From a virus, in the IMG/VR virus record IMGVR_UViG_3300022752_000206, positions 1-35,289 of that record: a stretch of 35,289 bases of DNA; one strand, given 5' to 3'. Of this stretch, positions 1-11,692 are shown piece after piece; within the stretch, counting starts at the first letter, position 1; the number at the start of each line of letters is the position of its first letter. Under the pieces are notes generated by a model, which was not told the DNA's origin, ran no database searches, and saw only the letters and a program-made list of their open reading frames with translations. The position numbers and the translations under genes were made by a program.

Positions 1-3
1 CAA

Positions 4-18
4 CATGTAATTTACATG
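4..18. repeat. 15-bp near-perfect palindrome
   Basis: Two 7-bp arms, CATGTAA and TTACATG, flank a single central base just beyond the stop of the last gene in the window. The remaining sequence between positions 19 and 83 has no convincing ORF or strong terminator. The palindrome could be an operator for whatever lies beyond the window edge, or chance. Confidence 0.3.
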
Positions 19-83
19 GCCCTGCCCATGAAAGTGTCTTAGAGAGGAACTGAGCGCCTGAGATCTGTGCCCTATTAGGCTAC

Positions 84-611
84 TTACAGGTTGTTAAACG
101 TACCGAGGACAAGTTCGCCGTTTGAGTCAGGCCATAGGTACTGGTAGTACTCCGGACGGTATCCGTTGTCCTCAGGATAGCCGAACTGGGAGTACCAGGG
201 ATAGTCCTTGCGCAGGAGAGCTACCCTGTGCGTTGAGGCAAGTTGCTCGTATCTGTCCTTATCCTTCATCCACCAGGGATACGTGAGTTTATCCTCAACG
301 CGGCCAAGCTCAAGGGCACGTATAAAAGTTGCCTCGATCTTAGGAAGCATGGTGGACTTAAATCCGCGCTGTAACCACACGTTACACATCGTGTTTGCGT
401 ATAGGGTCAATGCCTTTTCGTGCCCTGCCCACATCCTTGCCGCAGGGTGGTTGCGCCAGCCCTTTGGGTCACGGTGTTCACCGCGAGGATCAAGTTGGGT
501 AAGAGTTAACAGAAGTTGCCAAGCCTCAAGAACCTGCTTGTTTAGACGCTTGTTGTCAAGCTCCTGAGCGATACGCTCGAAGGATTCAGTCTGTGGTAGA
601 AACGTCTGCAT
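84..611 (-). CDS. MSMEG_6728-like / pyrimidine-dimer glycosylase-like protein
   Basis: A 175-residue soluble protein. Its N-terminus begins MQTFLP and is followed by LDNKRLNKQ and GWRNHPAARMW. This is the pattern I associate with actinobacterial MSMEG_6728-family proteins, which resemble the Pyr_excise family of T4 endonuclease V (DenV). DenV-type enzymes remove UV-induced pyrimidine dimers by base excision, using an N-terminal Thr and a Glu. Here Thr3 and several acidic residues are available, but I cannot place the catalytic Glu with confidence. The ATG has a good purine-rich ribosome site (AAGGACAGG) and its own candidate promoter just upstream, so it may be transcribed separately from the operon above. 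A DNA-repair role is inferred from family resemblance only. Confidence 0.6.
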   Translation of the reverse strand: MQTFLPQTESFERIAQELDNKRLNKQVLEAWQLLLTLTQLDPRGEHRDPKGWRNHPAARMWAGHEKALTLYANTMCNVWLQRGFKSTMLPKIEATFIRALELGRVEDKLTYPWWMKDKDRYEQLASTHRVALLRKDYPWYSQFGYPEDNGYRPEYYQYLWPDSNGELVLGTFNNL

Positions 612-637
612 GTACCTGTCCTTTTGTCATTGAGACA

Positions 638-646
638 ATTATATCA
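638..646 (-). promoter_or_regulatory. Extended -10 promoter with nested inverted repeat
   Basis: On the minus strand this reads TGATATAAT, an extended -10 (TGn plus TATAAT), 27-35 bases before the ATG at 611. No clear -35 is present. Directly downstream lies TTGTC-TCAAT-GACAA, a 5-bp inverted repeat placed over the expected transcription start, which could bind a repressor. The motif TGATATA(A/G)T also occurs upstream of the gene starting at 5903. Confidence 0.5.
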
Positions 647-654
647 CAGGTTTG

Positions 655-936
655 CTACTTTTCCTCCGGATTTGTGTCCTCGACAGGAACGTTTTGCTCG
701 TCCATCCTCTCCTCGATGGACTCGATCGGCACGTATATACCTACGACCGTTACCTTTCCGCAGGTTATACACTCGCAGACCGCACCTGGGCTAAGATTTA
801 GTGGGACGCTTACGTTCACGAGTCGTGTGATGATGTTCCCGCGCTCGTCGACGCTGTCAGGTTCCCAGACACTATTTTCCTGTATCCAGCACAGCTCGCA
901 CTGTGGAACAAGATCCTCGTCGTAGTCTCTAATCAT
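655..936 (-). CDS. Small zinc-ribbon-like protein, unknown function
   Basis: A 93-residue acidic protein that I do not recognise. It has two CxxC pairs (CELC near residue 13 and CITC near residue 56, followed by GK), a likely zinc ribbon. The C-terminus is rich in Glu and Pro. Its ATG overlaps the stop of the methyltransferase gene (TGATG), so it is probably translationally coupled to it. A small partner or nucleic-acid-binding role would be a guess. Confidence 0.7.
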   Translation of the reverse strand: MIRDYDEDLVPQCELCWIQENSVWEPDSVDERGNIITRLVNVSVPLNLSPGAVCECITCGKVTVVGIYVPIESIEERMDEQNVPVEDTNPEEK

Positions 937-2195
937 CAGCCCTTAGCTCCTATGGGACTAGAGTACCACTTTTTCTTCGCCGCGTGTCGGGAGAAGTCCT
1001 TGTCTCCGTTGATTAAAAATTCTCGATCTCCAATTTTTTCAGGAGCATCTCCCTCATGATTTCCCTCAAGTGAGTTTGTTATCGCGGTTGCGATATACTT
1101 TCCAGCCTGCACCGCGACCGCCTTTCCCCACACCGCGGACAGAGATGAGTAATCTCTAACACTTTCAATGTCCCAGTCATCAGGAAGTCCCTGCATGCGT
1201 GCAGCCTCACGGTGAGTTATAAGTCTTGGTTCGGTCGGATGAATAACGTGATCTAGCGCGGATCCGGTGAGAACGTTACACCAGTGATCCTCCTTCCATC
1301 GATAAGGCTGTGAGAAACCTAGCTTAAAGTTCTTGCGTAAGACTCGAGGAGATATATCTATCCACTTTTGTGGAAACTGTCCGTTGTTCATGTCAACTGC
1401 CTTCTTGATCGCACCGCCAAGATCACCGTTACCCTGCCAACCTTCGTTTCCGATGATGTCAAACACCTCCTCGATACGTTGAGCGTGTATGTTGGTCTTA
1501 CCCATGTGACCGTTTACAGTTCCGCTCTTTGATCTAAGGTGCTTAACCCACTTGCTTGCGGGAGCAATATACTTTTGTTCGTTCCATGACTGTGGCATCT
1601 TTGCAAGATCTCCAATGATGTCCATAATTCTTGGAAGTTCCTTTGGCTCCACGTGCGGTGCGTTAAACTTAATTCCACTTCTTACCGCTACCCAGAAGTA
1701 TCTTGGACGATATGAAAATCCACCAACCTGCAGGTTGTTGTGTTTCACATGGTATAGATCGTACTTCTTACCTGAGATCTCCTCAACCATGCGCCGATAC
1801 TTGTTCATTACGTCTCTTCCTTGTGTGTATGCCTGCTGTACACACTCAAATACAACTACCTTCGGTGCAACTCTTCCTGCGTATCGCATAAATGCTCTCG
1901 TGTGTTCATGTGCCTTTGCGTCAAGACCACGGTTAGCCTCACCTGACCAAACCGACCACCCTGAACACGGAGGACAACCTACGACTACGTCTGTTTTACT
2001 AACAGGCCACTCGCCTGGATCATCTGAGAAGTGATGTGTCCAGTTATCACCAAGATAATGACGGTTAGCCTCGGCAACTGGATTTCCAAAGTTTAATGTT
2101 CCAGTGCGTAGCTTCATCTCCATACCTGACTGCACAAAGCCTAGGCTCATGAAGCCGGCAAGACCGTTACAGTCAATAAAGTTAAGATCAGACAA
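936..2195 (-). CDS. C5-cytosine DNA methyltransferase (Dcm family)
   Basis: A 419-residue enzyme expected to transfer methyl from S-adenosylmethionine to C5 of cytosine in DNA. Visible motifs are an SAM-site-like FIDCNGLAGF at the N-terminus, catalytic GCPPC with Cys77 (motif IV), VFECV at residues 115-119 (motif VI, normally ENV, here ECV with the Glu kept), YRPRYFWVAV (motif VIII region), a RLITHREAARMQGLP block and GKAVAVQAG near the C-terminus (motif X). The start is TTG at 2195, preceded by AGGAGAGG. No restriction partner is visible. The phage may use it to mask its DNA. Its presence beside dCMP-hydroxymethylase-like and glycosyltransferase-like genes is unusual, because fully C5-substituted cytosine could not be methylated at C5. 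Confidence 0.88.
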   Translation of the reverse strand: MSDLNFIDCNGLAGFMSLGFVQSGMEMKLRTGTLNFGNPVAEANRHYLGDNWTHHFSDDPGEWPVSKTDVVVGCPPCSGWSVWSGEANRGLDAKAHEHTRAFMRYAGRVAPKVVVFECVQQAYTQGRDVMNKYRRMVEEISGKKYDLYHVKHNNLQVGGFSYRPRYFWVAVRSGIKFNAPHVEPKELPRIMDIIGDLAKMPQSWNEQKYIAPASKWVKHLRSKSGTVNGHMGKTNIHAQRIEEVFDIIGNEGWQGNGDLGGAIKKAVDMNNGQFPQKWIDISPRVLRKNFKLGFSQPYRWKEDHWCNVLTGSALDHVIHPTEPRLITHREAARMQGLPDDWDIESVRDYSSLSAVWGKAVAVQAGKYIATAITNSLEGNHEGDAPEKIGDREFLINGDKDFSRHAAKKKWYSSPIGAKG

Positions 2196-2258
2196 GTATA
2201 CACCTCTCCTAGTTAGCCACGGAAGGACTGTATACCGCCTTCACCGCGGACGTCCTAC

Positions 2259-2567
2259 CTATTCCACGGTGTTTTCTTTTAATCCAACCTCGTAACCGCA
2301 CCCTGCGTATCCTGCGATATCTACCCAGGTATCAGGCTTATAGGGTGATCCTTCTCCTGCGTCTCTAGATAATTTTACAAGTATCAACGCGGTTGCCACG
2401 TCTCTGCGTGTAAACTTTCTTCCAAACGCGGTAGACCAAAACTCCGCTATGCGCCCAAAGTTATCGTATGGTCCTCCGTAGTCTGTGTCTCTTGACCCAG
2501 AAATTAACGCGGCAGCCTGCCTGAGAGCCTCGACGCGTGGAAGTGTATTTTCAGTATTATCTGCCAT
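2259..2567 (-). CDS. DUF6378-type phage protein
   Basis: A 102-residue protein with the pattern SRDTDYGGPYDNFGRIAEFW, then a helical DVATALILVKLSR and a WVDIAGYAGCG segment. This arrangement is typical of the small all-helical family annotated as DUF6378 in many phages. No biochemical role is established to my knowledge. It sits among nucleotide-metabolism and DNA-modification genes. Translation starts at an ATG with AGGACTAGG upstream. Confidence 0.8.
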   Translation of the reverse strand: MADNTENTLPRVEALRQAAALISGSRDTDYGGPYDNFGRIAEFWSTAFGRKFTRRDVATALILVKLSRDAGEGSPYKPDTWVDIAGYAGCGYEVGLKENTVE

Positions 2568-2572
2568 GTTAC

Positions 2573-2770
2573 CTAGTCCTCCAACTTAGTGTTCATAGTT
2601 ACATATCCAATTAGCTCGTCACCGATCTCGTTAGATCTTAGCTTCATCTCTGCAAGAGTAGGAAGTTCCTCGTTTTGATTATTCATTATTCTTCTCCACT
2701 CGTCTCTTGCCTTGTTAGTCACGTCGGCAAGGTCTGTTCCACGAACAATGAACTCTATCGTTACTCTCAT
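2573..2770 (-). CDS. Small hypothetical protein
   Basis: A 65-residue protein that I do not recognise. It opens with an alternating hydrophobic beta strand (MRVTIEFIV) followed by a helical, charged segment. The ATG overlaps the stop of the upstream gene by one base (TGATG), which supports coupled translation and a real gene. Confidence 0.65.
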   Translation of the reverse strand: MRVTIEFIVRGTDLADVTNKARDEWRRIMNNQNEELPTLAEMKLRSNEIGDELIGYVTMNTKLED

Positions 2771-3189
2771 CAGCGAACTCTCTTCTGTAGCTGATATGGT
2801 GTGTAGTGGGTACCGTCAAGAACCGGCATCTTTCCGTCGTTTGACTTAAAGATGATGTCCCCGTAGCGAACTCCAACTACCTTTCCACGTCGTCCGTTGT
2901 GTATAACTCCGGTATCTCCGTCGTATGCATCACTCTTAACTCTTACCTCGTCACCGACAAGTATTGCGCCTGGCTGAGCATCAGCCCAGATCTCATCTGG
3001 CTTCTCCGGAAGTATCGAGTGGTTCACCGCAAGTTTTGTAAATAACTCGACGGTTTCCTTTACCTGGTTATTTGATAGTTTCATCTCATTCCAGGTTTCA
3101 AGTAGCTTAAGTATGGCAGTTCCAACGCCAACCTTAACCTTTGCCTCCTGCATTTGACCTTTAACCCAGTCAAAGTTTACCTCTGGCAT
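2770..3189 (-). CDS. Hypothetical protein with a KOW/SH3-like C-terminal barrel
   Basis: 139 residues starting MPEVNFDWVK. I chose the ATG at 3189 because AGGAGG lies six bases upstream. The longer reading to 3246 would overlap the neighbouring gene and has no comparable ribosome site. The N-terminal half is helical. The C-terminal half (GDEVRVKSDAYDGDTG, then GRRGKVVGVRYGD) looks like a small KOW/SH3-type beta barrel, often used to bind nucleic acid or protein. The function is unknown. Confidence 0.7.
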   Translation of the reverse strand: MPEVNFDWVKGQMQEAKVKVGVGTAILKLLETWNEMKLSNNQVKETVELFTKLAVNHSILPEKPDEIWADAQPGAILVGDEVRVKSDAYDGDTGVIHNGRRGKVVGVRYGDIIFKSNDGKMPVLDGTHYTPYQLQKRVR

Positions 3190-3190
3190 T

Positions 3191-3670
3191 TTATTCCTCC
3201 TCGTCCTTTGGTAGACACTTGTTGCACATCTCAGGTTGCTTACCAACCCCTACGTCATCAATTGCACGGTAGCAAACTATACACTTGACACCCTTGCTTT
3301 TTACTACGTATCCTTCTAGTTGTCTTTTCTTGTTCTTTTCCATTTTCTCAAGATATAGACGATCAAGTACCTCGTCTGTTCCACCAGCCGCAACGATTAT
3401 GTTTGCGACAAAGTGAAGAACGTCAACCGCCTCCTTGATGATCTCCTCACGGTCTGCGTAAGGTTGATCGTGCTGCCAAGGTTTCCATGAGATTGCCTGG
3501 CGCATCTCTGCAAGTTCATCGTCAATCGCAAGCATGTTCCACCGCATATATTCAACTAACTTACGAATCTTGCGTGGATCATCACCTGCCATCTCATCAA
3601 AATCTATGAAATACACGTTCTTCTGTAGATCACGTGTTTTTCTTAGCCAACCTTCAAACAGTATTCCCAT
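3191..3670 (-). CDS. Dimeric dUTPase/dCTPase-type NTP pyrophosphatase with zinc tail
   Basis: A 159-residue all-alpha NTP pyrophosphatase. The metal-binding pattern is visible as DELAE (Glu52, Glu55), then WKPW, then KEAVDVLHF (Glu80, Asp83), as in the dimeric dUTPase family that includes T4 gp56 (dCTPase/dUTPase). It should hydrolyse a dNTP, most likely dUTP and possibly dCTP, to the monophosphate and pyrophosphate. The C-terminus adds a zinc-knuckle-like CIVC (130-133) and CNKC (149-152). The neighbouring glycosyltransferase-like genes and the dCMP-hydroxymethylase-like gene make dCTP removal an attractive role, since T4 uses this activity to keep unmodified cytosine out of its DNA. Substrate preference cannot be read from sequence. 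Confidence 0.8.
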   Translation of the reverse strand: MGILFEGWLRKTRDLQKNVYFIDFDEMAGDDPRKIRKLVEYMRWNMLAIDDELAEMRQAISWKPWQHDQPYADREEIIKEAVDVLHFVANIIVAAGGTDEVLDRLYLEKMEKNKKRQLEGYVVKSKGVKCIVCYRAIDDVGVGKQPEMCNKCLPKDEEE

Positions 3671-3672
3671 TG

Positions 3673-4695
3673 CTATGCCTTTCTACTAAATATCTCAAGT
3701 GAGTCTGATAGCATAACTGCCGCATCCCGCTTGTTTGGAATTGACTGTACGTATGTTTCTCTTTGTTCCTTTGCCAGCTTATTTCTTTCATCCGCCGACA
3801 TCTCCTCTATACTTGCCGCGATGTGAAGCCAAGGTTCTCCTAGGGCACCACTTTCACGCCAGTCAGTTGCAACCGGTGTAAGTGCATTTATTGATTGAAC
3901 TAGTCTATATGTCCACCAGGTTCCTCCGGTTTGATATGGACTAATAAGTGCACCTATTCCACTTGCGATCTGCGCGGAAACCTGTTCATCTGTCCAGCCC
4001 TTGTGCCACTTCATTGGAACGGTAGGACTTGATAGCGTCGCAAGTGTAGACTTAGTCCAGTTAGTTGAGAAGTTTTCAACCACCCACTTTTCACGACGTT
4101 CAATCTCAATTGGATCCTGCATCGTAAGTATATATGAATCTAGGTTTATACCTTTTATCGACGCGGCCGCACCTACAGGAAGTTGAGATATTACCTTTCC
4201 AGTTCCGGACCAAGGAAGAGACGGATACAAGGTTGTTGGCCAGGTATCCTCTAGTAGATAGTCAACAACACCCATCAGGTCATCAAGAACGCTAGGTGTA
4301 CTTGCGTGCATGTAACCCTTGCGGTATGAGTAAAAAGATTTTGTCATGTTCTGTGGATTCTTTGACATCGCGCGAAGGCTTGCGGTAATCCTCACAGGTT
4401 CAGGTGCGTCAATGTAAAGTGCAAGTTTATCAGAATCATGTAATACATCAATGACGTTTAACGCGCCGTATACGCGGTTGGCACTTAAACTTGTCAGTGG
4501 ACTTAGGCCAACAAGAACGTGATCGTACTCGTTTAGGTCAGACGCCTCCCAGGATATCTCCGGATCTGTTTGAACAACCTCGTGACCTTGAACTGTTAGG
4601 ACGTGTGATAGTAAACTTGCAAATGAAAGTGATCTTCTATTTGCGTCGGTAGATGCGTGCGGCGCGGACATTCCTGTTAATAAGATCTTACTCAT
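3673..4695 (-). CDS. Glycosyltransferase-like protein (GT-B type), copy 2
   Basis: A 340-residue protein related to the adjacent upstream gene. It opens with MSKILLTGMSAP, a Rossmann-like strand and loop, and has an early VLVGLSPLTSLSANRVYGAL block. The C-terminal half carries LISPYQTGGTWWTYRLV, then VATD and LGEPW, matching the neighbour's LSPPYPHAGSGWWRSRF, VTD and LGDP. This layout fits the sugar-nucleotide-binding half of a GT-B glycosyltransferase. The ATG overlaps the neighbour's stop (ATGA). Given the context, I infer that the pair glycosylates a modified base in phage DNA; a lipid or protein acceptor is possible. No known family symbol can be assigned. Confidence 0.65.
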   Translation of the reverse strand: MSKILLTGMSAPHASTDANRRSLSFASLLSHVLTVQGHEVVQTDPEISWEASDLNEYDHVLVGLSPLTSLSANRVYGALNVIDVLHDSDKLALYIDAPEPVRITASLRAMSKNPQNMTKSFYSYRKGYMHASTPSVLDDLMGVVDYLLEDTWPTTLYPSLPWSGTGKVISQLPVGAAASIKGINLDSYILTMQDPIEIERREKWVVENFSTNWTKSTLATLSSPTVPMKWHKGWTDEQVSAQIASGIGALISPYQTGGTWWTYRLVQSINALTPVATDWRESGALGEPWLHIAASIEEMSADERNKLAKEQRETYVQSIPNKRDAAVMLSDSLEIFSRKA

Positions 4696-5903
4696 GCACG
4701 TGTCCCGTCTGCGTTTAACTTAACGCCCTTGTCCTCGGCAACCGCACGTTCAATAATTCGGTTGCAGTGTTCAACAAACCTGTCATACGGTGGAATATAA
4801 GGTGCAAGTGCATTTCTCTGCGCAAGTGCAGCCTCTGCTAGTTCATCGGTGGACATCTTTTCAACGTCCGCGATCTTTAACTTATACGGATCACCTAGCG
4901 GATCACCCTCACCCTTGTCGGTAACAAGAATTGATCCAACGTGCGCCGCATATAAAAAGCGACTACGCCACCAGCCTGATCCTGCGTGTGGATACGGCGG
5001 AGAAAGAATTCCCCAGTGTCTGTTATAAAACTCAAGTACGTCCTTCTCCGTATCAAATCTTTGTCCACCTAGTTTTTTAATTAGCTTACGACTTCCCACG
5101 ATCTCAACCGGCCAGGTAGGTGTCTTTCTTTCAAGCCAGCCGTCATGTGGCATTAGAGCTCCAAGTACCCACGCGCGTTTCTTTTCCGTCGCCGCAAGTT
5201 CAGTTACACCCTGCATCGTCGGAACTACAGTCGCGGTTGGATCAAGTGCCTCGATCGGACCTACGTCACTTGGCATGCGCCTACGCACGATTGAACGATC
5301 ACCAAACGAGTACATCGGACAGACCGGAACCATACCCGCTGCCCACCGTGCGTCTATAAGATCAGCCGCGGCTTGAACAAGACGCTTCTCCCAAGGTTTA
5401 ATGTTCTCATCGTTATCCATCATGTAGTAGCGCTCGATGTAGCACTTCTTTGCCGCGTCTGGATTTGCCTGTTTAATTCTTTCAAGTGCAGCCTCGATGT
5501 CCGCGCGACTAAAATACGTTGCGCCTTCATCACCGCGATGCTCGGTTCCAACTAAAAGATGCTTGTACAACATCTGTGGTTTACGAATTAGTGCACGTGC
5601 TCCGTTAAATACGGTGTTCGTCTGCCAATCATCAAAGAAACCTACGCAGGGAATACCTGATGAAAGTGCGTATAACGCACCCATCGCACCTTGACGTCCG
5701 TTAAGTGAGTTTAACGGTGCAAGATTGATCCATAGAACGTCATATGAGGACAGATCCTCGCCAGGTGTGATCTTACGCCAGTCAACTTCATGTCCTGACT
5801 CACGCAGCGCCTTAACAATAGACGCAGGCACGTCAATCTTTTGAATCGTACGTTTTTCCGTGTTGATCTGCAACGCGGTAAAACCACTAACCAATACTTT
5901 CAT
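4692..5903 (-). CDS. Glycosyltransferase-like protein (GT-B type), copy 1
   Basis: A 403-residue paralogue of the next gene. The N-terminal domain has MKVLVSGFTALQ and VLWINLAPLNSLNGRQGAMGAL. The C-terminal domain has GILSPPYPHAGSGWWRSRF, then GSILVTDKGEGDPLGDPY, and an alpha-helical end with TDELAEAALAQRNALAPY. It is about 60 residues longer than its partner, mostly in the middle. It heads a short operon whose promoter-like region contains an inverted repeat (5938-5966). The ATG is preceded by AAAGG. Two tandem paralogues could add two sugars in sequence, or act as a heterodimer. Acceptor and donor are unknown; DNA glycosylation is inferred from context. Confidence 0.67.
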   Translation of the reverse strand: MKVLVSGFTALQINTEKRTIQKIDVPASIVKALRESGHEVDWRKITPGEDLSSYDVLWINLAPLNSLNGRQGAMGALYALSSGIPCVGFFDDWQTNTVFNGARALIRKPQMLYKHLLVGTEHRGDEGATYFSRADIEAALERIKQANPDAAKKCYIERYYMMDNDENIKPWEKRLVQAAADLIDARWAAGMVPVCPMYSFGDRSIVRRRMPSDVGPIEALDPTATVVPTMQGVTELAATEKKRAWVLGALMPHDGWLERKTPTWPVEIVGSRKLIKKLGGQRFDTEKDVLEFYNRHWGILSPPYPHAGSGWWRSRFLYAAHVGSILVTDKGEGDPLGDPYKLKIADVEKMSTDELAEAALAQRNALAPYIPPYDRFVEHCNRIIERAVAEDKGVKLNADGTRA

Positions 5904-5937
5904 AATCCACTACCTTTCGTCTAAGTAGATTTGGAAT

Positions 5938-5966
5938 GTCACCTAGACTATATCAGAATAGGTGAC
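5938..5966 (-). promoter_or_regulatory. Extended -10 promoter inside an 8-bp inverted repeat
   Basis: Perfect 8-bp arms GTCACCTA and TAGGTGAC flank a 13-base spacer. On the minus strand the spacer contains TGATATAGT (plus positions 5947-5955), an extended -10 almost identical to the one before the gene starting at 611. A -10 enclosed by symmetric arms is a classic repressor-operator layout. It lies 35-63 bases before the ATG of the first glycosyltransferase-like gene, in the only real gap (5904-5984) of this stretch. Confidence 0.55.
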
Positions 5967-5984
5967 AAACCAGACTTACTTAGA

Positions 5985-6512
5985 TTAGAACGGTGACGCT
6001 GGTGGCGCTGCCGGTGCTGCTGCCGCAACCGGAGCAGCGGCAGGTGCCGGTGCTGGTGCAGGAGCTGGTGCAGCCGCAGGTGCTGGAGCAGACGATGCCG
6101 CTGTTACACCTGGGTAATATTGCTTGATCTCATTTTTCTTCTGACCTTGCCAGGTACGAGATGAGATCTGCGCACGAAACGCACGACCACGAATTGCCTG
6201 CTCAATCTGAGCGTTTGATGGATTGGTTGAGAAAAATTCACGACCAAGTCCAAGTGCATGCATCTTACGGAAGAACATTCCTAAAGCTGCACTGTTGTCA
6301 GGTGTAACAACTAGGTTATCCCATACAAGACGTTTTGCATGTGCACCGTTTTGTACCTGTGCCTTTATGGCAAACATTGTTTTACCAGATTGTGACACCT
6401 TTGCGGTAGCTTCAACTACAACTAGGTCGTAGTCGCCATCCGGTAGTGGATCATACCCTGCCGATACTTCACCGGCGTCTTTTACTAAATCGCCCCAATT
6501 AAGTGTACTCAT
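5985..6512 (-). CDS. Single-stranded DNA-binding protein, DUF669-like
   Basis: 175 residues. The N-terminal 130 residues match the phage DUF669 layout: GYDPLPDGDYDLVVVEA, then SGKTMFAIKAQV, ending in a conserved basic strand region. The last 40 residues are an Ala-Pro repeat ending ASPF, a flexible linker and tip like those of SSB proteins, though without the usual acidic stretch. It is expected to coat single-stranded phage DNA during replication and recombination. It follows the Sak4-like ATPase by six bases, the usual pairing in phages. Confidence 0.75.
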   Translation of the reverse strand: MSTLNWGDLVKDAGEVSAGYDPLPDGDYDLVVVEATAKVSQSGKTMFAIKAQVQNGAHAKRLVWDNLVVTPDNSAALGMFFRKMHALGLGREFFSTNPSNAQIEQAIRGRAFRAQISSRTWQGQKKNEIKQYYPGVTAASSAPAPAAAPAPAPAPAPAAAPVAAAAPAAPPASPF

Positions 6513-7325: not shown

Positions 7326-8258
7326 TTAGTCTGCACTGCCTTTCTTTTCTTCTACCCCGTAGTATGCGTACGGATTAGAAACCTCAAATGCGTCTTCAAT
7401 CGCAGCCTCAGCCGCACTTCCATCGTCAAACATCGGACAGATGGTGAAGAACTGGCACTTCCACTTGCAATCACGTGAAGGACGAGGATACGCAACAAAG
7501 CGATGATCTCCTCCTTCGTCAAGTGCCTTTCGTGTGTTTAACATGTCACTAAGTGTTCCATGAATTCTTTGCCAAAACGATCTAAGTGCAAATACGTTGT
7601 GTCGTACCTCAAGTTGCTCGTAAAACGGTGGACGCGCGTTGGCAGAACGCTTAACCTTCTTTAACATTGTGAAGATACCACCCTCAGAACGTTCACCTTC
7701 CTTGTTCTGTGCTGTCTCTAACATCATATATGTAAGAATCTGCTCGTTCATGTGTGCCATGCTTGAGAAGTCGGTAAATGAGCCGCCAACTGTCTTAAAG
7801 TCACGGAACATACGAACACCGTCAGCCTTACGACGAACGCGCATGTCGATCTTTCCTTGAAGTACCACAGAATTATCCAGTAAAGGCATTGAGATAATTT
7901 CCTCGGTTGAGATCATCTCTAACTCTGCGTCAATTCCATTTTCCTCAACCCACTGTAGGTAACCCTCAAGCATGATGCGTCCAAGCTCTGCCTCTGACTC
8001 AAGATCATAAGTATCACGATACGCCTCAACCAGTATCTTTTTATCGTTATCAACAAGTTGTGCGTGCGCATCAAGAAGTGGTATGTTCTTTGAGTAGTAC
8101 ATATCAAGTGCCTCGTGAATACGTGAACCAAGTGCAAGTGCACCCGTCATCTGCTTAGACTTTGGCTGTAGTCTACGGTAGTAACTTAACCACCACTTTC
8201 TACGGCAGTCCTTATATGTTTGTACCTCAGAGTTTGAGATATGTAGTGGCTCGGTCAT
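7326..8258 (-). CDS. Cas4/RecB-type PD-(D/E)XK exonuclease with iron-sulphur motif
   Basis: 310 residues. The nuclease core shows His49, then GKIDMRV (Asp138) and FRDFKT (Asp153, Lys155), followed by a QxxxY-like QILTYMM. One early cysteine (Cys18 in YKDCRRKWW) plus three late ones (Cys264, Cys268, Cys274 in CKWKC...C) form the split four-Cys arrangement of Cas4/AddB proteins, which hold a 4Fe-4S cluster. It probably resects DNA ends for recombination or degrades host DNA. The ATG overlaps the helicase stop (ATGA). No CRISPR genes are nearby, so this is the stand-alone phage version. Confidence 0.87.
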   Translation of the reverse strand: MTEPLHISNSEVQTYKDCRRKWWLSYYRRLQPKSKQMTGALALGSRIHEALDMYYSKNIPLLDAHAQLVDNDKKILVEAYRDTYDLESEAELGRIMLEGYLQWVEENGIDAELEMISTEEIISMPLLDNSVVLQGKIDMRVRRKADGVRMFRDFKTVGGSFTDFSSMAHMNEQILTYMMLETAQNKEGERSEGGIFTMLKKVKRSANARPPFYEQLEVRHNVFALRSFWQRIHGTLSDMLNTRKALDEGGDHRFVAYPRPSRDCKWKCQFFTICPMFDDGSAAEAAIEDAFEVSNPYAYYGVEEKKGSAD

Positions 8259-11146
8259 AGGTTTCCTGCCTTATCGTCCTTTAGTAGTGTAAGTAACTTA
8301 TCCTTGTCGCGAACTATCTGTTCAAAGTTATCGGCCTTTGTCTCAAGTACCTGGATAACACGTTCCTCAATAGTTCCCTCTGTTACGTAGTCCGTAACGA
8401 TGATCGAGTCATGAATCTCAGATCCAATACGGTGAACACGGTCTAGTGCCTGACGATGATCAACTAGTGACCAAGGTCGTTGTAACATGATTAAACGTCT
8501 TGCCGCGGTTAAAGTAATTCCAACTCCTCCAGCCTGTGCGGTAAACAGAATCCACTTGATCTTTCCTGCCTGAAAGTCATCAACCGCCTGTTGGCGTTCA
8601 TCATCTGTTTGAGCGCCGGTTATAAGACCATGCGCAATTTTTTCCTTGGTTAACGCCGCACTTAAAAGATATATAAGTTGTCGTGATACCGCGCATACCG
8701 CAACAGAGTCATTTCCAAAGTCACCATTTTTTATGTCGTCCATAAGTGCGTCAACCTTACATGAAGGATCAGCAAGTATTGCCTTGATCTCACCTGTCTC
8801 CTCGTTTGCCGCGATCTCTGCGTATGAGCTTGCAAACTGTAAGAGACGAATAGTCTGCGTTAGTGCGCTAGGTGCGGTAATTGCCTCGCCACCCTCTAGC
8901 TCCGCGATCATCATGTCACGCATCTGGTCATAAGCCTTCTTTTGTTTTGTGCTCATCTCAACGTCACGACGTTCAAACATCATTTCCGGCAACCATGGAA
9001 GTACCTTTGCCTTTAACATGCGTCTCATTCTTGGATTTAACGCGGCATAAAACTCAGGTTCCATGTGTGGCTTTATTCCTAAAACCATCATTCCACCAAA
9101 TGCGTTAAGCATTGTGTTAACCATGCGATCAATCCAGCGTGTCTTACTTGGCCACTCCTCAGGACTTAACCAGTGAAGAATAGGCCACAGGTCAACTACT
9201 GTATTTGCAATAGGCGTTCCTGTTAGAGCAAATCGAACATCTGCATCACCTGTTGCAGCCCATAAGGCTCGGGACTGCTTACTCTTTGGCTCTTTGCTTC
9301 TATGACAGTTACGAACTAAAACTTTATTAGCAAAATAATTGCCTGTAGAAGTTGTTATTGAGTAGACAGTTGTTGTATTTTTTGAATAACTATCTCGGCA
9401 CACCTGCTCGTATCTTTGTGAACTTCTGAGTTCCAAAAGCGGATGATGGTCCAATCCATGCTTTCCAATTTCTTGCTTCGAACTACATCTGCAGCTTTTC
9501 TTTCTTGATGATGGTGTACTCCACCGTCTACTTCTACTGCCAATTTTATCTCCGGAAATCCAATGTCTAAAAATGCGCAAGTAGTTCCAGTGTTTCCCGG
9601 AAAGTTGAATCGAACTAACCATTCTTTTTCGTGCGGAGGCAGCCTTTCTGATAACATTTTCACCTCTGGAGAAGTCCTCCTTCTGTTGATACTCATTCCA
9701 GCTGCTGCTCTCTGCCATCCACGCTTCCCATTGGCTGAACGAATTGCTGGATCCATATTCTTGAAAGGGTTGCTTTCTGATAAAAGATGTCGCCTCACCG
9801 CTTGGTACAGTTTGCTCTCTGGGTCCAACATGTGCTTTGACATTGTCCTTGAGCGAGATTCTCGAACTCCAGGCTGATCTGCTCTCCACAGTTGCACACA
9901 TCTTCTTGTGCAAAATCTTGAAGTTTTCTTCTGGTAAGGTGGCTGATACAACTTTTTGCACCACTCGCAATTCTTTACTGGTTGTAGAGTTCTTCTTGAT
10001 GGAGTTTTTGAGTACGCCTTCTTTCCATTTGCTCCCGCTGAACAGCGCTTTGAACAATAAACTCTTCCCCTGTGTGTTGTTAAAGACTCTTTGCATTTGA
10101 ATTCTTGGTGACACATCTTGCATTGTTTTACTATCAATGGCATACAGCACATCACCTTCTACTAAGTCTCCTAGGGGGCGGTATCCTTCACCCTTTACAT
10201 AGAAAGGGTGGTTTGGAGTTGCTCCCCACTCGGTTACTATTGTATCACTATTTCGGTTCATCGTATCAAGTACTGTCGACAAAACTACTTTATTTTTATT
10301 ATGATCATAACCCCAAATTTGATCTCCTGGTTTTAACTGATCTATAGCCTTAAATCCATGTGGCGTGCTTATTGGCGTTTCCTTTACAAAGCACTCGTCT
10401 GCAACTACAGCCTTAAAGTCAATTCCGTTTAGTTCTCGCTTGTGAACCTCGCAACGATTTTCTGTGACCTTCTCGTCGTGTCCGCCGCAGTCCTTACAGC
10501 GGGCAAGTGCAACAGATCCGTATGGTGCAAGTCTTGAGTGACCGCGTAGAGATTCCCAGTTGATAATAAACACCTGCGCAGGTTCATCAAATTGCTTACG
10601 TCTTTGAGTTGCTGAGCCCTTAATTATCTGTATATCCAGTCCTGGCCACCACTTGTCAAACTCGCGCTTCCAGTTTTTCTTAAGGGTGTTAGGGCAGACG
10701 ATCAACGCCGGAAATATAGGTGTTCCATTTTCCTGTAATAGCTTAAGTGCTCGTATTGCCTGGGCTGTCTTTCCTAGTCCAGGTTCGTCGGCAAGTAGGG
10801 CACGTCTGGCCGTCGCTAGAAACTTTACACCTGCTCTTTGATGCGGGAATAGGTCCTCGTTTAGCGGGTCCTCAAGGGACTCTAGTTCACGTAATTCGTT
10901 CGCTGGGGTAATTCTATTGGCAAGCTCGTTGCCTGCCCACTCGGTCAACCTAGGGCCAATAACAAGGTCATTCTTAAAGGTAGATCGAAGCGCAAGACAT
11001 GTAGCCCAGCTCGTTGGGACGCTCCAAACCATGGTGGTCGCATCCCACTTGGCTCCAGGGATACTCTTACAAAGTTCCTTAAAGCGCCACTCAGCATTAA
11101 TAACTATATGCTTGTTTGTCTCGCTCAACTCCACGCTAACGGGCAA
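8255..11146 (-). CDS. SNF2-family helicase interrupted by an intein
   Basis: 963 residues as translated; about 601 after removal of a 362-residue intein (residues 252-613). The N-terminal extein has a beta-rich lead-in, the Walker A ADEPGLGKT (120-127) and a CxxC...C patch. The intein splits motif II between DE and CH. The C-terminal extein has LTGTPIAN (motif III), GGVGITLTAA (motif V) and QALDRVHRIGS (motif VI), which is SNF2 rather than UvrD type. It should be an ATP-driven DNA translocase for replication, repair or remodelling. The start is TTG with AAAGGA eight bases upstream. The +1 residue after the intein is the Cys of DECH, so splicing should be needed to rebuild the ATPase site. Confidence 0.93.
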   Translation of the reverse strand: MPVSVELSETNKHIVINAEWRFKELCKSIPGAKWDATTMVWSVPTSWATCLALRSTFKNDLVIGPRLTEWAGNELANRITPANELRELESLEDPLNEDLFPHQRAGVKFLATARRALLADEPGLGKTAQAIRALKLLQENGTPIFPALIVCPNTLKKNWKREFDKWWPGLDIQIIKGSATQRRKQFDEPAQVFIINWESLRGHSRLAPYGSVALARCKDCGGHDEKVTENRCEVHKRELNGIDFKAVVADECFVKETPISTPHGFKAIDQLKPGDQIWGYDHNKNKVVLSTVLDTMNRNSDTIVTEWGATPNHPFYVKGEGYRPLGDLVEGDVLYAIDSKTMQDVSPRIQMQRVFNNTQGKSLLFKALFSGSKWKEGVLKNSIKKNSTTSKELRVVQKVVSATLPEENFKILHKKMCATVESRSAWSSRISLKDNVKAHVGPREQTVPSGEATSFIRKQPFQEYGSSNSFSQWEAWMAESSSWNEYQQKEDFSRGENVIRKAASARKRMVSSIQLSGKHWNYLRIFRHWISGDKIGSRSRRWSTPSSRKKSCRCSSKQEIGKHGLDHHPLLELRSSQRYEQVCRDSYSKNTTTVYSITTSTGNYFANKVLVRNCHRSKEPKSKQSRALWAATGDADVRFALTGTPIANTVVDLWPILHWLSPEEWPSKTRWIDRMVNTMLNAFGGMMVLGIKPHMEPEFYAALNPRMRRMLKAKVLPWLPEMMFERRDVEMSTKQKKAYDQMRDMMIAELEGGEAITAPSALTQTIRLLQFASSYAEIAANEETGEIKAILADPSCKVDALMDDIKNGDFGNDSVAVCAVSRQLIYLLSAALTKEKIAHGLITGAQTDDERQQAVDDFQAGKIKWILFTAQAGGVGITLTAARRLIMLQRPWSLVDHRQALDRVHRIGSEIHDSIIVTDYVTEGTIEERVIQVLETKADNFEQIVRDKDKLLTLLKDDKAGNL
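9308..10393 (-). mobile_element. Intein in the helicase DECH box
   Basis: Residues 252-613 of the helicase reading frame. Block A starts at Cys252 (CFVKETPISTPHGF) and continues with LKPGDQIWGYD. Block B is WGATPNHPF (the TxxH motif). The C-terminal blocks are VYSITTSTGNYFANK and VLVRN, with terminal Asn613 followed by extein Cys614. The usual penultimate His is Arg here, a known variation. The splicing parts total only about 110 residues. The long centre (roughly residues 340-590) has no LAGLIDADG or HNH motif in this frame and reads as Ser/Arg/Lys-rich filler, because a real gene occupies another frame there. Confidence 0.93.
9355..10155 (-). CDS. Overprinted Vsr/DUF559-type homing endonuclease nested in the intein
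   Basis: A 266-residue protein, wholly inside the intein and one frame away from it. Two zinc-finger-like units come first: C12xxC15 with C34xxxC38, and C63xxC66 with C82xxxC86. A DUF559/Vsr-like nuclease fold follows: TSPEVKMLSERL, FLDIGFPEIKLAVEVDGGVHH (Asp197, Glu208, Asp210) and DWTIIRFWNSEV. A stop codon lies two codons upstream of the GTG at 10155, so translation must begin locally. Starts at 10155 (GTG), 10152 (ATG) and 10143 (ATG) are possible. AGGAG lies 12 bases before the GTG, and AGAAGG lies 11 bases before the ATG at 10143. It probably cuts intein-free helicase alleles to drive homing. The protein looks far more natural than the same DNA read in the intein frame. Confidence 0.87.
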   Translation of the reverse strand: MMCCMPLIVKQCKMCHQEFKCKESLTTHRGRVYCSKRCSAGANGKKAYSKTPSRRTLQPVKNCEWCKKLYQPPYQKKTSRFCTRRCVQLWRADQPGVRESRSRTMSKHMLDPESKLYQAVRRHLLSESNPFKNMDPAIRSANGKRGWQRAAAGMSINRRRTSPEVKMLSERLPPHEKEWLVRFNFPGNTGTTCAFLDIGFPEIKLAVEVDGGVHHHQERKAADVVRSKKLESMDWTIIRFWNSEVHKDTSRCAEIVIQKIQQLSTQ

Positions 11147-11167
11147 CTGATCGATCCTTTCGTCGTT

Positions 11168-11184
11168 ATGTATACATACTAACA
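11168..11184 (-). promoter_or_regulatory. Candidate promoter with palindrome upstream of the helicase
   Basis: On the minus strand TGTTAGTAT (plus 11176-11184) fits an extended -10, TGn followed by TAGTAT. It runs into the perfect 10-bp palindrome ATGTATACAT (11168-11177). It lies about 25-40 bases before the TTG start of the helicase gene and just after a terminator-like hairpin, so a fresh transcription start here is sensible. No clear -35 was seen. Confidence 0.4.
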
Positions 11185-11205
11185 GGAAACTGCAGAAAAG
11201 TAATT

Positions 11206-11231
11206 AAAAACTCACCTAGTAAGTAGTTTTT
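11206..11231 (-). terminator. Rho-independent terminator-like hairpin after the resolvase
   Basis: On the minus strand, directly after the resolvase stop, ACTTAC-TAG-GTGAGT can pair as six base pairs with one G-T, followed by TTTTT. Flanking AAAAAC upstream could lengthen the stem. The U-run and position suit an intrinsic terminator between the resolvase and the helicase. Confidence 0.55.
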
Positions 11232-11692
11232 TACTGAAGTAGGCGCATTGGCTTCCAACCTATCTTTACAAACCTCAATAATCCGTGTCTTATGGCGTCA
11301 AGTGCGTGTCCGTCACCTCCGCGGTGCCAATATTCCAGTTTTTTAAGTTTATCGTTCGCAAACATACCCTTTGCGTCGGAAGGTGACTGGAAGATTATTG
11401 ACTCCGGATCAATCTCATTATCCAGCATGATTTGGCGCAATATCCCGATCTGCTCCAGCGAGTAGGGTGCCTGGGAGTTCTTTACGGTCTGCATGTTTAT
11501 GGTAAATCTTTCACAGACTATATCTATAGGAATATCTTTATCTTTTGACATGGTGATTGCGTCACGTATGGGCTTGGCGTACTCGCGCATCTGATACTCA
11601 CCTGACGAGATAAGCCTAGGCTCGGTTCCGTCATATTCAAACAGCGCGACTCCACTTGCCTTTCCTGGGTCAACCGCTAGAACTAACTTCAT
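11231..11692 (-). CDS. RuvC-like Holliday junction resolvase
   Basis: A 153-residue RNase H-fold nuclease. The acidic catalytic set is visible as AVDPGKASG (Asp8), IVCERF (Glu61) and GGDGHALDAIRHG (Asp127, Asp132, with His129). RuvC-type enzymes cut four-way junctions that form during phage replication and recombination, freeing DNA for packaging. The ATG overlaps the polymerase stop (ATGA), so it is coupled to replication gene expression, and a terminator-like hairpin follows. Confidence 0.85.
   Translation of the reverse strand: MKLVLAVDPGKASGVALFEYDGTEPRLISSGEYQMREYAKPIRDAITMSKDKDIPIDIVCERFTINMQTVKNSQAPYSLEQIGILRQIMLDNEIDPESIIFQSPSDAKGMFANDKLKKLEYWHRGGDGHALDAIRHGLLRFVKIGWKPMRLLQ

Follow-up and report, generated by a model that had tools for sequence, protein, structure and literature searches.

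In a 35,289-nucleotide stretch of viral DNA (IMG/VR record IMGVR_UViG_3300022752_000206, positions 1 to 35,289, hereafter the window), a phage helicase gene on the minus strand is interrupted by what we read, with a probability of about 0.9, as a cis-splicing intein that carries, between its splicing blocks B and F, a separately translated homing endonuclease gene (HEG) overprinted in the +1 frame. The host gene, an open reading frame (ORF) for an SNF2/SF2-type DNA helicase, covers positions 8255-11146 including the stop codon and encodes 963 amino acids, intein included, from a TTG start. The intein (362 amino acids) occupies positions 9308-10393, and the endonuclease ORF, in the +1 frame relative to the intein frame, lies at positions 9355-10155 on the same strand. 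Sequence and structure prediction carry this reading through two reading frames, intact splicing blocks, a conserved phase, purged stop codons, purifying selection on the endonuclease, and folded models of both the nuclease and the Hint domain.

The helicase ORF matched the Pfam families SNF2-rel_dom (1.5e-32) and Helicase_C (6.4e-15). The intein sits in Walker B (motif II) at the site ADE/C...N/CHRSKEP (slashes mark the junctions), and its frame is open for 362 codons from Cys252 (10393) to Asn613 (9308), as the initial annotation had stated. All four splicing blocks, A, B, F and G, are present. Cys1, the block A nucleophile, is found in the window and is invariant across the aligned inteins; block B reads TPNH (residues 59-62, positions 10208-10219), its His62 being at least 90% conserved in the aligned inteins; and blocks F and G (VYSITTSTGNYFANKVLVRN, positions 9308-9373), confidently predicted to be folded, end in an Asn that is followed by the extein Cys. 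The residue ahead of this terminal Asn is Arg in the window and in a close relative, L006 (VLVRN/C, positions 9308-9316 in the window), and His, Ser or Gly in most relatives. Pfam matches to Hint_2, PT-HINT and Hint fell below the curated cut-offs for the window sequence alone. Profile comparison matched solved inteins in the PDB with values down to 5e-22, and Foldseek gave fold matches to inteins too. In the AlphaFold model of the intein frame, Hint residues 1-105 and 341-362 have a predicted local distance difference test score (pLDDT) near 97 over most of their length, and the linker between them (residues 113-318, positions 9440-10057), which lies over most of the endonuclease gene, is predicted to be disordered, with pLDDT mostly below 50. 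An intein-less allele of the site is found in the actinophage DSL-LC01 (L005), where the flanks are joined as VVADE/IHRSKEP; among phage records, the window helicase gene is nearest to this phage.

As had been proposed, the other frame holds a complete endonuclease of 266 codons when read from a GTG at position 10155. An ATG at position 10143, giving 262 amino acids, is the more likely start, since it is the first possible start in L006, which is 83% identical, with AGGTGA 8 nucleotides upstream. In the window a ribosome-binding-like sequence (AGAAGGTGA, positions 10152-10160) lies 8 nucleotides ahead of this ATG, and the two Shine-Dalgarno (SD)-like candidates named in the initial annotation, AGGAG (10172-10168) and AGAAGG (10160-10155), are also present. 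A TAG stop in the endonuclease frame (positions 10159-10161), two codons before the GTG, was likewise found where it had been reported, and blocks simple read-in from far upstream.

The predicted protein has a zinc-ribbon-like N-terminus and a DUF559/Vsr-like nuclease C-terminus of the EDxHD type (Pfam DUF559, 9.2e-14). Its profile matched PDB entry 3hrl (4e-17) and the homing endonuclease I-Bth0305I (PDB 3r3p, 6e-4), and AlphaFold modelled it as a folded protein with a mean pLDDT of 84. Residues E204, D206, G207, H210 and D219 are invariant in 58 endonuclease sequences and include the E, D, H and D expected of a PD-(D/E)XK-type nuclease. The C-terminal codons of the endonuclease overlap conserved C-intein sequence (consensus RVDxVEILE...VYNIEVE). 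The ends of the endonuclease gene, conserved in both frames, are therefore truly dual coding, in agreement with the earlier claim.

In order to judge how far an open intein frame departs from chance, the endonuclease protein was held fixed, its own codons were shuffled among synonymous positions, and intein-frame stops were counted. The window contains no such stop compared with 15.7 +/- 2.6 expected, an outcome that was not matched in any of 2,000 shuffles. A stop in the intein frame requires an endonuclease codon ending in T ahead of a codon that starts with AA, AG or GA. At these stop-risk codons the third base is T in 0 and C in 18 cases, versus T in 57 and C in 23 elsewhere (Fisher p about 1e-8).

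The same arrangement recurs widely. We assembled 206 loci in 151 clusters, made up of the window, phage records, IMG/VR scans and a scan of bacterial genomes. A tblastn search of phage records gave relatives, mostly at 25-30% identity, in Vibrio phages (including CP-T1), Corynebacterium phage phi673 and Pseudomonas phage MR14, and in four representatives (CP-T1, 1.088.O, phi673 and MR14) the relative takes the form of an unannotated ORF nested in the +1 frame of an open helicase gene. The bacterial genome scan added an Akkermansia metagenome-assembled genome (MAG), a Ruminococcus MAG and Azospirillum canadense, all overprinted. By layout, overprinting in the +1 phase accounts for 129 of the 151 clusters, split genes for six, in-frame fusions for three, and free-standing or other arrangements for 13; no overlap in the +2 phase was found among the 151. 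Across the 129 overprinted clusters there are no intein-frame stops, compared with 1,065 expected under synonymous shuffling, and 125 of them have p0 < 0.05 when taken singly. The remaining 22 clusters carry 7-49 stops in the same phase, and a weakly purged, neutral class with 1-6 stops, sought across all 151 clusters, does not occur. Among the fetched loci we found no relative in which an intact, unsplit host intein gene contains intein-frame stops. A second frame created by sequencing error is excluded, as both frames recur in unrelated contigs. An intein-seeded scan gave a +1 HEG in 55 of 59 unique inteins, a proportion that is biased because the query includes the overprinted linker.

Wherever a contig spans both ends of the intein, blocks A (Cys1), F and G (terminal Asn) lie in one ORF that continues with C or S, and the block B motif TxxH is visible in most such loci. 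Hosts examined with Pfam include SF2/SNF2 helicases, a clamp-loader ATPase and a helicase-methylase, with insertion mostly at DE/C; several further hosts look like terminases by the sequence around the site, a resemblance that Pfam did not confirm. Endonuclease and Hint identities are correlated (Mantel r 0.60, reached by 0 of 5,000 permutations), but the rank correlation is weak (0.26) and strict co-inheritance of the two is therefore not claimed. Apparent internal stops in the endonucleases of L038, L173 and L198, at first sight a sign of decayed HEGs, turned out to lie upstream of the true start, and that interpretation was rejected. Two loci seem to contain a further element in the same host gene. 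One helicase gene in an Akkermansia MAG (L087, positions 1-3380) appears to hold two inteins, the overprinted one at Walker B and, at Walker A (THN/CGKT), what looks like the end of a LAGLIDADG-type intein. In L016 (positions 1780-5745) a LAGLIDADG_3 domain lies about 230 residues ahead of the overprinted intein in the same ORF and is probably a second intein.

The pattern of change between close relatives separates the two frames. Between the window and L006, change at the first, second and third endonuclease codon positions is 0.10, 0.08 and 0.26, and such a third-position excess is found in close pairs; identity is 0.83 in the endonuclease frame versus 0.69 for the linker read in the intein frame. 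Synonymous change affects 48 of 201 sites in the overlap versus 146 of 327 in the extein, about half (p = 1e-6), and is also partly reduced at overlap sites that carry no stop risk (41 of 138, p = 0.003). Taken together, the third-position excess, the higher endonuclease identity and the reduced synonymous change indicate that the endonuclease is the main constrained protein, to which the intein frame adds stop avoidance and some further constraint. The initial annotation had suggested that selection keeps the intein frame open. This stands, given 129 clusters without stops compared with 7-49 stops in the 22 that are not overlapped, with the qualification that constraint over most of the overlap amounts mainly to the avoidance of stops. 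The linker is weakly conserved and predicted to be disordered, and protein is conserved in both frames at the two ends only.

The genetic code offers a reason why only one phase is seen. Because codons of the forms NNT and NNC never differ in the amino acid they encode, a third-position T to C change can remove any stop in the +1 phase and leave the endonuclease protein unaltered. In the +2 phase a stop is unavoidable wherever Met precedes Ile, Met, Thr, Asn or Lys, and at least one such pair occurs in 88% of the endonucleases. The single phase seen may also reflect common descent.

We propose that a single mRNA with two translation starts would give two products. Initiation at the helicase start would yield a precursor in which a long unstructured linker connects the two halves of the Hint domain; this domain would fold and splice itself out of the helicase precursor. 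Initiation at the endonuclease's own start, with its SD-like site, would produce the DUF559/Vsr-like endonuclease as a free protein. Its target would be the conserved Walker B DNA of helicase genes that lack the intein, and cutting there would cause the element to be copied. Since the host protein needs read-through of the intein frame, selection would remove every intein-frame stop. Two observations support independent initiation: stop codons in the endonuclease frame lie close upstream, and SD sequences occur in excess, with 25 of 68 loci having an SD of at least five bases close to a start where nine were expected. Alternatively, programmed +1 ribosomal frameshifting near the nested start could produce an N-intein-endonuclease fusion, the second frame being entered by slippage. 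The phase is always +1, as this would predict, and the stretch between the upstream stop and the start is free of stops and would permit slippage there. However, an endonuclease-frame stop lies a few codons before the start in the window and directly before the first Met elsewhere, many loci have an ATG with an SD-like sequence, and a shared slippery motif was not noticed in the start regions listed, for which no dedicated motif test was made. We regard frameshifting as unlikely.

A shade less probable still is that the intein no longer splices, or that one frame alone is functional and the other is a passive leftover. The weakly conserved, predicted disordered linker and the Arg ahead of the terminal Asn in the window would fit such decay. 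Against it, the splicing blocks are conserved, with C1 and the terminal N retained in the aligned inteins; intein-frame stops are purged in 129 clusters; the endonuclease retains its invariant zinc and active-site residues and its codon periodicity; and a helicase that retained the insert in its Walker B motif should be inactive. A further possibility is removal at the RNA level, by a group I or II intron that carries the HEG, the protein intein signature being incidental. HEGs with their own starts are typical of introns, and I-Bth0305I, the nearest characterised enzyme by profile, is intron-encoded; a lenient Rfam search of positions 8200-11250, however, gave no intron match, Hint/intein domains were detected by both Pfam and PDB profiles, and an open frame would be needless in an intron, leaving this explanation highly improbable. 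That an endonuclease gene simply happened to carry a long second open frame draws on nothing beyond the fact that long second frames occur, and the comparative data refute it, both in the window and over the family.

Several points nevertheless weigh against a separately translated endonuclease overprinted on a splicing intein. The internal translation start, splicing, cutting of empty sites and homing are inferred, the last three from knowledge of the family. Foldseek comparison of the nuclease model matched 3hrl and I-Bth0305I with probabilities of 0.96-1.00 and modest E-values, none of its matches falling below E = 0.001. The SD signal is clear in part of the family only, and Arg instead of His ahead of the terminal Asn may slow splicing of the window intein. 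Finally, third bases at risky sites in the overprinted family are T in 0 and C in 1,879 cases, a count that is partly built in, as the absence of stops is what defines the overlap class; the evidence is therefore the gap between 0 and 7 stops, together with the shuffles, and not the zero itself.

Other layouts in the family show how the arrangement may change. A mini-intein (L280, positions 3016-3558; also L282) is 98.3% identical to the intein of L052 (positions 3667-4761) save for one deletion of 552 nucleotides, an exact multiple of three, in which most of the HEG is gone and the intein frame is kept. Host helicase genes are split in six clusters that form one clade (L134, L136 and L138-L141). 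In this clade the N-half ends about 105 nucleotides inside the endonuclease ORF, the C-half starts about 135 nucleotides before the end of the ORF, and the endonuclease thus overlaps both split-intein halves, still in the +1 phase. Because the split clade is nested among overprinted relatives and both of its halves remain overlapped in that phase, its structure suggests derivation from the overprinted state. On a FastTree phylogeny of 185 columns, layout changed state nine times compared with about 22 times with shuffled labels, and the midpoint root was reconstructed as overlapped; support is uneven and the root and the order of events are unsettled, so that we draw on nothing in the tree but the nesting of the split clade beside overlapped lineages.

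DUF559/Vsr-like endonucleases in frame within large ORFs were found in L122 (positions 2474-4669; L126 is on the same contig), L130 and L132, and these have many stops in the other phase. The in-frame endonuclease intein of L122 sits in a Mu-F-like head gene. Free-standing relatives adjoin terminase, virion or helicase genes. One of them (L083, positions 3977-6105) immediately precedes a helicase gene in which the frame is interrupted precisely at DE..HH, the usual insertion site, owing either to damage of the target or to an assembly error. Another group (L009, L030, L031, L044, L051 and L056) is a clade of free-standing endonucleases in related phages, located between genes for a DEDRD-ending and a DHPQNFL-type small protein. 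As to the window as a whole (positions 1-35289), it is a phage fragment that also encodes a DNA polymerase, an exonuclease, a Sak4-like protein, and tape measure, minor tail and major head proteins.

On balance, and with moderate confidence, we regard the overprinted inteins as an undescribed class of phage inteins, large and of long standing, with a fixed +1 phase, and as the source of at least one split-intein line in fractured genes, by loss of the needless middle of the intein frame. Textbook inteins are a single two-domain protein, a mini-intein or a split intein. The arrangement described here would add another architecture to these, one that is common in phage contigs and in which the two genes of the parasite occupy the same DNA yet make separate proteins, and it may represent a natural intermediate between whole and split inteins. 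It would also provide a clear example of extensive overprinting on one strand that selection maintains, and one whose restriction to a single phase can be explained by the genetic code. In many annotated phage helicases, clamp loaders and terminases, the 'linkers' would then be shadows of a nuclease gene that the annotation lacks. To our knowledge an intein with an overprinted homing endonuclease is apparently undescribed: the literature searched, which extended neither to the preprint of Gosselin et al. 2025 on non-canonical architecture nor to Dassa et al. 2009, yielded no account of an intein whose endonuclease is out of frame. The suggestion that the layout is new for inteins thus holds within that literature, and the layout is not unique to this phage.

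A close parallel in gene organization within that literature is the ShiLan domain (PMC11855218), in which an HNH gene lies out of frame within a phage methylase; it has no splicing domain, and its authors expect it to remain in the protein. A genome announcement mentions it as well (PMC12613952). As in the window, an endonuclease ORF lies out of frame in a host gene that is open in its own frame, and likely has its own internal start. The ShiLan nuclease is, however, of the HNH type and lacks a splicing domain, whereas here a Hint intein surrounds a DUF559/Vsr-like nuclease. With I-Bth0305I, an EDxHD homing endonuclease, the window protein shares the profile and fold of the catalytic domain; I-Bth0305I differs in being encoded by a phage intron, in not being overprinted on an intein, and in its DNA-binding region. 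Fractured genes, reportedly described by Dassa et al. in 2009 (NAR), are said to contain split inteins with an intervening EDxHD/Vsr-like HEG. Their nuclease belongs to the same broad superfamily and lies between N- and C-intein halves, and their split arrangement is seen in six clusters here, but the host gene is unsplit in the window and in most relatives. Canonical large inteins such as PI-SceI and PI-PfuI have the same Hint blocks A, B, F and G, an endonuclease between B and F, and a conserved active-site motif of the host protein as their insertion site. In those inteins the endonuclease is in frame, whereas here it occupies another frame and would form a separate protein, with a disordered linker in place of the endonuclease domain.

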